From a virus, in IMG/VR virus record IMGVR_UViG_3300002144_000408, positions 1 through 21,069 of that record: 21,069 nucleotides of DNA, one strand, 5' to 3'. The notes below the pieces were generated by a model. It ran no database searches, had not been told where the DNA came from, and worked only from the letters and a program-made list of their open reading frames with translations. A program made the position numbers and the translations under genes. Every line of letters starts with the position of its first letter. The stretch's first letter is position 1. Of the stretch, positions 9,091 to 17,420 are shown piece by piece.

Positions 9091-9263
9091 TATATTTCCA
9101 GGGCTAATTGTTTCGGTCCAACCTTACGGAAGAACATACAGTTGTCTTCGTTGAGTTCGAGTATAAATTCCTCTCCAACATTTAAAGGCTTGTCGTCTAT
9201 ATTTACATCACTTAACAATAAACCTTCGCTAGTTATATCAAACTTGTAACCTACGTGCATCAT
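9090..9263 (-). CDS. 57-aa hypothetical protein in a coupled gene chain
   Basis: The frame begins MMHVGYKFDITSEG and looks like a compact beta-rich protein (alternating hydrophobic strands around FILELNEDNCMFFRKV). It starts with an ATG at 9263 that overlaps the TGA of the preceding gene (ATGA), with AGGA seven bases upstream, and ends overlapping the start of the next gene (TAATG). The gap-free fit and good site make it a real gene despite its length. No family is recognised. Confidence 0.7.
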   Translation of the reverse strand: MMHVGYKFDITSEGLLLSDVNIDDKPLNVGEEFILELNEDNCMFFRKVGPKQLALEI

Positions 9264-9673
9264 CTTGCCATCCTAGATATTTCTGTTGCTTCTTGTTGAT
9301 TCATAATTGGAACTGCGTTTGATTTATGCATCGTAGCAATACCTTTTATGAGTGTACCCGTGTATTTTGGCGATTCTTTTTTAGTTCCATGACCACCGCC
9401 ACCTGATTTATGGCAAGAAGGATATTCTTGTACTTCTCTACGAAATGATTCAGTTGGTACGAATGGTTGGAACTCAGATTTAGGTTTCACCTTTCCTAGA
9501 CAATAATTTATATATTCATCGACACTGTCGTATCTGAGATCATGCATACCTCTACGTTTCATTGCCTTATTGTGTAGTCGCCAATCAAGCTCGTATTGAG
9601 CCATTTTAGCTTTAGTGATTTTAACTTTACGTTTCCGAGTGGAAATCGTTGATAGACCTCTTGCCAATGCCAT
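9260..9673 (-). CDS. Conserved T4-like marine phage protein (GIATMHKSNAVP motif)
   Basis: The 137-aa basic protein has an N-terminal Arg/Lys block, a YELDWRLHNKAMKRRGMH helix, a Gly-rich linker with SGGGGHG, and ends with a KGIATMHKSNAVPI segment. I recognise that last segment as a conserved motif of hypothetical proteins in T4-like cyanophages and relatives. The function is unknown. It is the first gene after the roughly 170-nt structured RNA. Its ATG follows the RNA's U-tract by about 15 bases, with only a weak GGA as ribosome site, so it may be controlled by that element. Confidence 0.7.
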   Translation of the reverse strand: MALARGLSTISTRKRKVKITKAKMAQYELDWRLHNKAMKRRGMHDLRYDSVDEYINYCLGKVKPKSEFQPFVPTESFRREVQEYPSCHKSGGGGHGTKKESPKYTGTLIKGIATMHKSNAVPIMNQQEATEISRMAR

Positions 9674-9689
9674 AATATAAATCCGTCAA

Positions 9690-9860
9690 ATAAAAAGAGA
9701 ATTGGTGTCGATCCTTTGGTGTTCCGTTCCTACGCAGTATGTCGGTAGTTCAGGCGTTACTCCCGGATGCAGTGGTCTTCTCTGGGTCATTATAGTTAAG
9801 TCACGATACGTCTTTAAACGTAAGGACAACTATTCGCCGATTGGATTTACCACCAATTCA
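9690..9860 (-). ncRNA. Probable structured RNA (small RNA or cis-regulatory leader), about 170 nt
   Basis: This 225-base stretch has no gene on the minus strand but looks organised. Promoter P5 would start transcription at about 9860. The RNA then opens with GAATTGGTG (9859-9851), which pairs perfectly with CACCAATTC (9707-9699); the latter is followed by TCTTTTTATTT, a terminator-like U-tract. Inside the nine-pair closing stem, nested helices fit: ATCC 9846-9843 with GGAT 9714-9711, a seven-pair helix with one bulge between 9826-9819 and 9734-9728, and GTAT/ATAC at 9809-9806 and 9740-9737. The result is a rod with ends paired, like 6S RNA in outline, but I see no 6S, tmRNA, RNase P or known riboswitch sequence signature. 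A second ACCAA at 9720-9716 could compete for the 5' strand, which would suit a switch controlling the gene at 9673. Confidence 0.6.
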
Positions 9861-9866
9861 AATTAT

Positions 9867-9895
9867 ATTATACAACACTATTAACCAAATGTCAA
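9867..9895 (-). promoter_or_regulatory. Perfect sigma70-type promoter P5, driving the structured RNA
   Basis: TTGACA at 9895-9890 and TATAAT at 9872-9867 on the minus strand, spacer 17; a second overlapping TATAAT follows immediately. The -35 begins four bases past the bS21 stop codon. The predicted start point falls on the first bases of the closing stem of the structured RNA. Confidence 0.87.
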
Positions 9896-9898
9896 TAG

Positions 9899-10189
9899 TT
9901 AACTGAATTTATTTCTTCTTCTAGGATTAAAAGGATTAGCCGTCAGTAGTTTCTTCTGATGCCTTTTAACAGCCATAGCCTTTTTACGCTTCCTTACCGC
10001 AGTTGGCTTTTCGTAAAATTCTCTTGTACTAATTTCATTTAAGATTCCTGCCTTCTCAACATTCTTCCTAAAAATTCGCAATCCTACGTCAAAAGGCATT
10101 GCGGTCGCAGGCCTTGTATCTTTAGGGTGTCTTTTCTGTGGAGTCAGATCAACTGAACGTCCACCATTTCTTCGGGTCTTATTATACAT
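9899..10189 (-). CDS. rpsU: Ribosomal protein bS21 homologue with N-terminal extension
   Basis: From about residue 31 the protein follows bacterial bS21 closely: [20 protein letters not shown], then [16 protein letters not shown] and [11 protein letters not shown]. bS21 sits on the 30S platform next to the anti-Shine-Dalgarno end of 16S rRNA and helps choose mRNAs. Phage bS21 could replace the host copy and favour phage messages. The 96-aa product has about 30 extra basic N-terminal residues and an Arg-rich tail (NPRRRNKF). The ATG at 10189 lies two bases after the cold-shock stop codon and lacks a clear Shine-Dalgarno, so it probably depends on coupling; an internal ATG at 10099 would give a bS21 of ordinary size but has no good site either. 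Confidence 0.9.
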
Positions 10190-13409: not shown

Positions 13410-13673
13410 TTAATAGTCCTCACTCATTTTCAATTGGCACTCCTTTACGAAGTGATAAAAAGTACCGATATACCGATCATCCTCAAATATTTGAGGTAAT
13501 ACATTTGTACTTACATTCAATTCTTTCAGTTTATTATAATATAAAGTGAGTCCAATGTCAAGGAATGTATACTCACCATACATATCATTTGCTGTCTTCT
13601 TTGCCTTATCACAAAACTGACAGCCTTTTGTACCATAGATGTAGATCACTTCTTCGGAGTGTTCTCTTTCCAA
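13410..13673 (-). CDS. Glutaredoxin (intact copy of a duplicated gene)
   Basis: The 87-aa protein is a full glutaredoxin: YIYGTKGCQFCDKAKK holds the dithiol active site Cys18/Cys21, VLPQIFEDDRYIG the cis-Pro loop and following strand, and a C-terminal helix completes the fold. Glutaredoxins reduce disulfides, including the C-terminal pair of class I ribonucleotide reductase, and some carry Fe-S clusters. The first 42 codons lie in the duplicated block, so an almost identical N-terminal half occurs at 14225-14100 fused to another gene. Promoter P7 is embedded in codons around residues 38-47. It overlaps the 105-aa gene upstream by 28 bases. Confidence 0.88.
   Translation of the reverse strand: MEREHSEEVIYIYGTKGCQFCDKAKKTANDMYGEYTFLDIGLTLYYNKLKELNVSTNVLPQIFEDDRYIGTFYHFVKECQLKMSEDY
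13533..13561 (-). promoter_or_regulatory. Perfect sigma70-type promoter P7 inside the glutaredoxin gene
   Basis: TTGACA at 13561-13556 and TATAAT at 13538-13533, minus strand, spacer 17. The -35 is made from the last bases of the duplicated block and the -10 from unique sequence. The matching site in the other repeat copy keeps TTGACA but has no TATAAT, so only this copy forms a promoter. The next gene start is glyA. Confidence 0.8.
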
Positions 13674-14099
13674 TTGTTAATGTAATCAAGCTGTTTAGCC
13701 TGGGACCACTCTTCCGCTAACAGTTCGTTATCTTCTTTGAATAATCGTAGTACTTTTTCTGTATCAGCAAAATCGACGTTAGTAACTGTTTCACCTAACC
13801 ATCTTTGAGAGAACTCTTTTACTTCTTCTGATTCCACAAATTCCTGGGCAAATTGCCTTGCAAGCTTATCTGGTATCCGATCCTCGTGAAGGCCTTCGCG
13901 AGGTATAATGTATCTCTGTTTGAATACTGAAATTGTATCTACTATTACATAATCACCTTTCATCTTTCACTCCCTTAATTAGTTTACGCTCAGATATTGG
14001 TTGTCCAAATTCACGAGCAAAAACTGTTTTGCCTTTATCAGGACTTTCGTAAATATACTTTTTCTTTTCTTCACTAATTTTAATATCTTTTGTCATTAT
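13549..14099. repeat. Tandem direct repeat, copy 1 (period 552)
   Basis: This block repeats directly at 14101-14651 with only four base differences, at 13554, 13567, 13839 and 13898. It covers the 3' part of the chimeric ORF, the whole 105-aa gene and the first half of the glutaredoxin gene. Two differences are silent and two change an amino acid (Thr/Lys, Phe/Ser). Outside the borders the identity stops abruptly. Confidence 0.97.
13646..13963 (-). CDS. Duplicated 105-aa phage hypothetical protein, copy 1
   Basis: The product starts MKGDYVIVDTISVFKQRYIIP, a beta-hairpin, then has charged helices with VKEFSQRWLGETVTNV and a Glu/Lys-rich end. It resembles small phage proteins with a strand-rich start and helical tail, but I assign no function. 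It differs from copy 2 by one residue, Phe in place of Ser near residue 42. Its start overlaps the chimeric ORF by 11 bases and its end overlaps the glutaredoxin by 28, the same arrangement as in the presumed ancestral operon. Confidence 0.75.
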   Translation of the reverse strand: MKGDYVIVDTISVFKQRYIIPREGLHEDRIPDKLARQFAQEFVESEEVKEFSQRWLGETVTNVDFADTEKVLRLFKEDNELLAEEWSQAKQLDYINNWKENTPKK

Positions 14100-14225
14100 T
14101 AGTCCGATGTCAAGGAATTTATACTCACCATACATATCATTTGCTGTCTTCTTTGCCTTATCACAAAACTGACAGCCTTTTGTACCATAGATGTAGATCA
14201 CTTCTTCGGAGTGTTCTCTTTCCAA
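13953..14225 (-). pseudogene. Chimeric ORF: truncated glutaredoxin fused in frame to the 47-aa gene
   Basis: The first 42 residues repeat the glutaredoxin N-terminus, including the CQFC active site, up to FLDIGL. One junction codon follows, then the complete 47-aa protein MTKDIKISEEKKKYIYE... The cis-Pro half of glutaredoxin is missing, so the thioredoxin fold cannot complete and redox activity is unlikely. The fusion is exactly what a 552-base tandem duplication would make at its junction. The 47-aa part may still be made alone: its own ATG at 14096 has GGA six bases upstream. Whether to call this a pseudogene or a new fusion gene depends on expression. Confidence 0.8.
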
Positions 14226-14515
14226 TTGTTAATGTAATCAAGCTGTTTAGCCTGGGACCACTCTTCCGCTAACAGTTCGTTATCTTCTTTGAATAATCGT
14301 AGTACTTTTTCTGTATCAGCAAAATCGACGTTAGTAACTGTTTCACCTAACCATCTTTGAGAGAACTCTTTTACTTCTTCTGATTCCACAGATTCCTGGG
14401 CAAATTGCCTTGCAAGCTTATCTGGTATCCGATCCTCGTGAAGGCCTTCACGAGGTATAATGTATCTCTGTTTGAATACTGAAATTGTATCTACTATTAC
14501 ATAATCACCTTTCAT
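14198..14515 (-). CDS. Duplicated 105-aa phage hypothetical protein, copy 2
   Basis: This copy is identical to the one at 13646-13963 except for Ser instead of Phe near residue 42. It overlaps the 47-aa gene before it by 11 bases and the chimeric ORF after it by 28 bases. All its start signals are kept, so both copies should be translated, which would double the dose. Confidence 0.75.
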   Translation of the reverse strand: MKGDYVIVDTISVFKQRYIIPREGLHEDRIPDKLARQFAQESVESEEVKEFSQRWLGETVTNVDFADTEKVLRLFKEDNELLAEEWSQAKQLDYINNWKENTPKK

Positions 14516-16217: not shown

Positions 16218-17420
16218 TTAGTGAACGTGTTTAAACGTTTCCAGTAATCCTGCGACCAAATCTTCCATCATACCATTAGTGTGAAGTGGTGTAGGTGTAA
16301 TTCTAAGCCGCTCTTTACCCACATCGACTGTTGGGTAATTAATAGGTTGTACATATAATCCATGTTCGTTTAATAGCCTGTCTGAAATTGCTTTACATTT
16401 CTTTGCATCTCTAACCATCACTGGTAATATATGAGTGCAACTGTTTGGATGTATTTCGATATTGTTCTCTATAAATAGTTGTCTTAATGTTTCAGCTCGT
16501 TCTTGATGTAGTTCTCTCAATTCATTATGATCCATTAAATAACGAATAGAAGCAATTGCTCCTGCTGCCATTACAGGACTCATACTTGTTGTAAATATAA
16601 ATCCACTTGCCACAGATCTAATTGCATCAAGAACAATACTGTCACCAGCAATATAACCACCGTGACAACCAAAGGCCTTTCCTAAAGTTCCATTGATAAT
16701 ATCAACTCTGTCTTGTAAGCCTTCCTTTTCGCAATATCCTGCGCCTGTATCTCCATAGAGACCAACTGCATGTACTTCGTCAATATATGTCATTGCGTTA
16801 TATTTATCTGCTAAGTCACAAATTTCTGCAATAGGGCCAACATCTCCATCCATACTATATACAGATTCAAATACAATACATGGTGTTAACTCAGCCTCAG
16901 TTGCAGAAATAAGACAGGCTTCTAATGATGCCATATCATTATGTTCCCAAACACGTTTCTCTGCTCTGCTGTGTTTCATTCCCATAATCATTGAGGCATG
17001 ATTCTTGTTATCTGAAACAAAACATATATTAGGAATGATACGAGATAGAGCAATTAACGCCCATTCGTTTGCTACATAAGCAGAAGTAAATAATAGACCA
17101 CTTTCTTTTTGATGTAATTTCGCAATTACATTTTCGAGTGTAACATGATAATGAGAGGTACCGCCAATATTACGAGTACCTCCACTACCGCTTCCTGTCT
17201 TTAACAGCGCGGTTTGCATTGCGTCAATTACATACTTGTTTTGTCCCATTCCCAAATAATCATTTGAGCACCAATTGACAATTGTCTTTGGAGAATAAGG
17301 TGAGTACCAAGTCGCTTTAGGAAAGTTTCCCTTATCACGAACGATATCGTTAAATACCCTGTACTTACCTTCTTCTTTTAATTTATCAATCACATCATGA
17401 AAAGGTTTTTTGTTAATCAT
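16218..17420 (-). CDS. hemA: 5-aminolevulinate synthase (first step of heme synthesis, Shemin pathway)
   Basis: The 400-aa alpha-oxoamine synthase reads as ALAS rather than KBL or Bio[18 protein letters not shown] is the typical ALAS start, [17 protein letters not shown] marks the glycine/succinyl-CoA site, [12 protein letters not shown] gives Asp214 and His217, [12 protein letters not shown] holds PLP Lys248, and [11 protein letters not shown] and [10 protein letters not shown] close the set. Lysine 248 has the same number as in Rhodobacter ALAS. It condenses glycine with succinyl-CoA to 5-aminolevulinate, which feeds heme and other tetrapyrroles. The Shemin route is used by alphaproteobacteria, which supports such a host. 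It follows nrdB by 13 bases, so it is likely co-transcribed with the nucleotide genes. All visible catalytic residues are intact. Confidence 0.94.

Follow-up and report, generated by a model that had tools for sequence, protein, structure and literature searches.

A Conserved Phage-Encoded Structured RNA, Often Adjacent to a bS21 Gene, Without a Match in Rfam

The Locus and Its Promoter

The window analyzed here is an entire virus record of 21,069 bases (IMG/VR IMGVR_UViG_3300002144_000408), and all coordinates are positions in that record. Its minus strand carries a gene for ribosomal protein bS21 followed by a gene for a 137-aa protein of PHROG 27048 (Table 1). As a sequence-only reading of this DNA had described, no recognizable gene was found in the gap between the two. 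The PHROG 27048 protein has a basic N-terminus (TRKRKVKITKAK), and a C-terminal KYTG..IKGIATMHKSNAVP motif was near-invariant among the PHROG 27048 proteins of alignment A5; both features were also found in PHROG 27048 proteins of phages that lack the RNA described below.

The same reading had placed a perfect promoter so that transcription would begin on the first base of a closing helix, here called P1, and had remarked that the paired ends of the RNA are followed by a U-tract. Both observations were borne out. The promoter matches the sigma-70 consensus at 12 of 12 positions, and the seven bases separating its -10 box from the start of P1 (position 9859) fit a transcription start on or next to the first base of that helix. 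The two strands of P1 pair perfectly and the T-tract lies directly past them. Scanning of the window for TTGACA-N16/17-TATAAT yielded seven perfect sites, all on the minus (coding) strand (13561, 10488, 9895, 8766, 6134, 4060, and 2540); weak sites were about as numerous as in shuffled sequences, and the perfect sites stand out.

Elsewhere on the minus strand, a tandem duplication was observed at 13410-14515. A 105-aa ORF is present there twice in almost identical form (13646-13963 and 14198-14515), as are two glutaredoxin-like ORFs that begin with MEREHSEEVIYIYGTKGCQFCDKAKK (13410-13673 and 13953-14225), the second of which diverges past ~40 residues. To the eye, a 400-aa ORF at 16218-17420 resembles 5-aminolevulinate synthase or a closely related pyridoxal-phosphate enzyme.

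Table 1. Features of the RNA locus in the source record.
Feature	Position	Strand	Basis
bS21 gene, upstream of the RNA	9899..10189	minus	PF01165, E 5.5e-14
Promoter TTGACA-N17-TATAAT	9867..9895	minus	12/12 sigma-70 match
Structured RNA	9697..9860	minus	covariance-model match, 164 nt
P1 (closing helix), 5' strand GAATTGGTG	9851..9859	minus	covariation
Arm A: P2, conserved internal loop, P3	9776..9845	minus	column 20-93 covariation
P2, two pairs	9845-9844 with 9777-9776	minus	
P3 module, ~40-nt variable hairpin, L001/L287 type	9792..9833	minus	
Arm B (core): P4, internal loop GGGAGTAAC / AACACCAAAG, P5	9710..9770	minus	covariation
P4	9770 and 9768-9765 with 9714-9711 and 9710	minus	
P5	9748-9745 with 9733-9730	minus	
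P1, 3' strand CACCAATTC	9699..9707	minus	covariation
T-tract directly past P1	9692..9696	minus	enriched in homologs
Downstream 137-aa gene	9260..9673	minus	PHROG 27048, alignment

A Family of Homologous RNAs

A search of IMG/VR with the 137-aa protein returned 62 loci (referred to by L numbers), and in most of the closer ones a related RNA was plain ahead of the PHROG 27048 gene. Pattern scans and a bS21 search added further homologs, giving a total of ~75 IMG/VR contigs, a count that includes partly redundant metagenome assemblies, and 40 distinct sequences. One pattern scan contributed L287 and otherwise produced mostly chance matches in coding sequence; another, equally dominated by coding chance matches, found again only the L388 and L070 types. 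Homologs were 133-205 nt long, apart from a 95-nt short form (L388). The RNA is not protein-coding: most reading frames contain stops, none is open across the family, and indels are not in triplets.

A covariance model, R1, was built from 32 sequences. The source-record copy scored 126 bits (E 2.9e-31), a value that gives its placement and is no independent test, this copy being a training member. Sequences outside the training set were also matched: the L388 short form at 68 bits (E 6e-16) and the two domains of L070 at 48 and 19 bits, together with the L335 copy, which is near-identical to L001. Each searched record contained a single match, except for the split halves of the L070 form. L335 and L024 carry a tRNA gene past the RNA and ahead of the PHROG 27048 gene; its anticodon, TGT, corresponds to threonine in the genetic code. 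The RNA ahead of the tRNA gene in L024 has decayed to a remnant.

The promoter is conserved together with the RNA. Most homologs retain a 12/12 promoter at the 5' end of the RNA, 4-7 nt ahead of P1, the gap being 13 nt in three of them (L073, L087, and L287); it is absent in groups in which the RNA lies directly behind bS21. A run of at least 5 Ts past P1 was found in 62.5% of homologs versus 9% of shuffled tails, and several copies lack the tract, among them L388, L070, and L073.

Covariation Supports a Common Fold

Taken by itself, the source sequence proves little. Its best single-sequence fold (-41 kcal/mol) is energetically unremarkable, with z = -0.75 and 46 of 200 shuffled sequences folding as well, so that the single-sequence folding check proposed from the sequence lent no support. 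An ordinary folding energy would suit a chance hairpin, or a mere terminator between two genes with no conserved RNA. That explanation retains next to no probability: it is refuted by covariation, and the conserved letters, modules, and compensatory changes recur in 40 distinct sequences.

Helices were set by a column-pair covariation scan of an alignment of 32 sequences (A3). Across the 27 proposed pairs, 90.0% of cells were paired, compared with 26-48% when the partner was slid by 1-3 columns, and two-sided changes occurred at 19 of the 27. Pairing and covariation values as high were reached in none of 500 shuffles; a measure of further pair types showed no excess over shuffles. An RNAalifold consensus on alignment A1 recovered P1, P4, and P5 and missed P3. 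We also traced the changes on a tree of the downstream 137-aa protein, which is independent of the RNA, and found 60 independent two-sided changes between standard pairs, at 23 pairs, versus 2-7 with slid partners. P1 contributes 25 such pair-preserving changes; over its 8 counted pairs 93.8% of cells are paired, and 6 of these pairs show two-sided changes. P4 and P5 covary as judged by the column-pair scan, the slid controls, and the protein tree, and column pair 20-93 in arm A occurs as C-G, G-C, or U-A. Taken as a whole, the comparative evidence confirms that positions 9860-9697 of the minus strand encode a conserved structured RNA, and the earlier proposal of a real structured RNA covarying in related phages is thereby strongly upheld.

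Two further candidates were considered. Pairing of columns 120-121 with 186-187 (CC/GG) is doubtful, as only 51.6% of cells are paired and UU faces UC or CU in half of the sequences. A k-turn in arm A (GA/GA opposite CC/GG) remains a candidate only, the flanking stem pairing uncleanly.

Architecture of the RNA

The sequence-only reading had envisaged nested helices forming a rod. Covariation instead supports a fold in which P1 closes two separate arms. Arm A has few pairs. Arm B consists of P4, a two-pair continuation, and then P5; in its conserved internal loop GGGAGYAAC for the most part faces AACRCCAAAG, and the P5 hairpin, which contains CGACAUACUGA, is kept, like arm B itself, in every intact copy. 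In L388 and four identical contigs P1 closes arm B directly, arm A being missing as a unit. As judged from this natural 95-nt form, arm B is the core and arm A is optional. L070 and its relatives offer a second arrangement, in which the arms are neighbors and have separate closing helices (GATTGTTGG/CCAACAATC and CTTGGTAGAGG/CCTCTGCCGAG).

Comparison of the homologs indicates that hairpin modules are exchanged in both arms. P3 is swapped among a 30-nt hairpin that is constant, one of 40 nt (source record, L001, and L287), and a tetraloop hairpin, and the P5 loop may bear an extra hairpin of 34 nt or shorter. The 30-nt P3 module (GGAATCACGGAGTTAATAGCTCTACC) is almost invariant among L003, L010, L025, L039, and others that are otherwise very different, which suggests a binding partner of its own or recent exchange. 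In the IMG/VR pattern scan it occurred inside this RNA only. The invariant letters of the family lie mostly in internal loops and not in an exposed antisense seed.

A switch had also been proposed, in which ACCAA (9720-9716), the sole candidate strand put forward, would compete for the 5' strand of P1. In the source record this competitor can pair over 6 nt; in most homologs its reach is only 3-5 nt, compared with the 9-10 pairs that P1 usually keeps there. Since ACCAA is therefore unable to outcompete P1 in most homologs, the proposed switch is unsupported; this result on conserved alternative pairing covers ACCAA.

Searches for Known Relatives

With Rfam 15 (4227 models), no match at the gathering score was obtained in the source record or in 11 RNA loci, L024 giving a tRNA only. 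Relaxing the threshold to E values of up to 10 for four copies (source record, L005, L015, and L388) produced chance-level hits far below gathering. Likenesses noticed by eye to 5S rRNA, to parts of 16S rRNA, and to glycine and glutamine riboswitches were rejected, as none had an Rfam match at E up to 10, and ARAGORN reported no tRNA or tmRNA in the source record. The earlier statement that no known family signature is recognizable thus holds for the source record and its homologs, and the RNA represents a new family by the measure of these 4227 models. Phage-encoded structured RNAs are a known kind, and the function of this one may yet turn out to be a familiar one. A literature search, itself of incomplete coverage, found no description of it.

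Comparison with isolates was similarly negative. Blastn of the source-record, L015, L010, L070, and L388 copies against isolate phages gave promoter-like or short chance matches only, and the RNA was absent, by model search, from four isolate phages (Melnitz, HTVC008M, C48C1, and PhiW-14). A pattern scan of genome contigs returned 108 stretches, the first 100 of which were scored without a credible model match. No match was found in 563 proteobacterial genomes of two classes (289 and 274), a weak negative given strict filters and few candidates per genome. By ribonucleotide reductase the nearest isolate is Melnitz, a Methylophilales phage of the Kyanoviridae, with 70.9% identity. The sequence-only reading had spoken of pelagiphages; this was close, although that affiliation is not borne out, as the nearest isolate is Melnitz and both it and Pelagibacter phage HTVC008M lack the RNA.

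That reading had also considered a 6S-like RNA, an open-promoter mimic sequestering host RNA polymerase. The size, the paired ends, and the RNA's own promoter are in keeping with 6S RNA, itself a discrete RNA of ~150-200 nt with paired ends. However, no Rfam model matched, the 6S families included; the covarying helices form a three-way arrangement of P1 and two arms instead of a rod around a large central bubble, and the promoter-mimic bubble is absent; and L388 retains only a 95-nt arm. We consider this explanation very improbable.

Other structured RNAs offer partial parallels. The glnA riboswitch and tmRNA of marine T4-like phages are likewise found near promoters in the same broad phage group, and Melnitz carries a glutamine riboswitch (glnA) and a two-piece tmRNA (PMC9004378); the present RNA differs in having no Rfam or ARAGORN match and in not being found in Melnitz. 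GOLLD and ROOL are likewise ornate RNAs of phages or mobile DNA without an assigned biochemical function. They are several times larger, and no Rfam match links them to this RNA. According to one report, GOLLD, ROOL, and OLE form RNA-only complexes (PMC12286853).

Genomic Context and Possible Modes of Action

In most copies the RNA lies between bS21 and the PHROG 27048 gene, 20-60 nt ahead of a coding start. This context raises the possibility of a cis-acting leader, riboswitch-like or protein-sensing, in which P1 and the T-tract would form a terminator for the next gene. At most loci promoter, RNA, and start codon stand in line, with ~20-25 nt from the RNA to the ATG; a T-tract follows P1, the conserved internal loops resemble a binding pocket, and riboswitches are in use in marine T4-like phages, as in the case of Melnitz above. 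Several observations argue against a leader. In L021/L027, L025, and the groups of L028 and L039, the RNA is found 5-10 nt past the bS21 stop codon and lacks a separate promoter. In all of these except L021/L027 the distance is 9-10 nt, and a 12/12 promoter serving the following gene stands past the RNA. The downstream gene varies, and the PHROG 27048 gene also occurs without the RNA (L029-L038). In addition, ACCAA, the sole candidate for a switch strand, lacks conservation. We therefore regard a cis-acting leader as rather unlikely, though it deserves consideration.

The neighbors themselves differ among homologs. By eye, the RNA of L073, L087, and L287 lies ahead of a gene for a small membrane protein, with an epimerase gene as a further neighbor in L073 and L287, and that of L070 has MazG-like and ParB/HNH-like neighbors and precedes the latter. 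Comparison of these loci indicates that the constant element is the RNA and not the gene before or after it.

An association with the bS21 of the phage is plausible by analogy with OLE RNA, a structured non-coding RNA of Bacillota (~600 nt) of unclear function, which binds bS21 and whose fold is changed by it (PMC12054373). The RNA might bind this protein, or else the 30S platform, forming a ribonucleoprotein or retuning host ribosomes. bS21 is directly upstream at most loci, and a passage of PMC9723584 that cites earlier work states that the bS21 of phage HTVC008M enters E. coli ribosomes. The two RNAs have a link to bS21 in common: OLE binds the protein (PMC12054373), and here the phage bS21 gene is adjacent in most copies. 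The present RNA is far shorter than OLE, is phage-borne, and has no Rfam OLE match. OLE's SD/anti-SD mimic is absent, CCUCC and GGAGG being found in none of 39 homologs; AGUAGG alone was present, in 23 of the 39. Furthermore, bS21 is absent from the 107,852-base contig bearing the split form of the RNA and from shorter contigs with other neighbors, which may be incomplete, and many phages with bS21 lack the RNA. A bS21-linked action is accordingly doubtful in our estimation, as is the more specific proposal that the RNA belongs to a novel class of phage RNAs whose complexes with phage bS21 or the host 30S platform would redirect host translation early in infection.

Discussion

We favor, as the probable explanation, a stable and discrete structured RNA that belongs to a new family and acts in trans, over a cis-acting leader. 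The main reason is that the RNA stays constant while its neighbors vary; it has its own promoter or lies directly behind bS21. Several features weigh against this explanation: the leader-like position of most copies shortly before a coding start, the want of a T-tract in copies such as L388, L070, and L073, the small number of pairs in arm A, and P1 enclosing the whole RNA, which would be an unusual terminator hairpin.

In the favored model of a trans-acting RNA, the family comprises RNAs of ~95-205 nt from T4-like phages related to the Kyanoviridae. Transcription by the sigma-70 polymerase of the host would begin with the first bases of P1 and stop past P1 and the T-tract, so that both ends would be paired and protected. 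Expression would probably fall early in infection, as we infer from the sigma-70 promoter. Core arm B and optional arm A stand on P1, their invariant unpaired letters serving as putative protein-binding or tertiary sites, and the folded RNA would most likely act by attaching to a protein or particle, of either host or phage origin.

Deeply conserved, structured non-coding RNAs of phages without known relatives are rare, and known RNAs of this sort (GOLLD, and OLE in bacteria) have each remained an open problem. The present RNA is small, and its natural variants are ready constructs, comprising a 95-nt core, optional arms, and forms with or without the promoter. Its frequent adjacency to a phage ribosomal protein gene offers a testable idea of how phages may retool host machinery.
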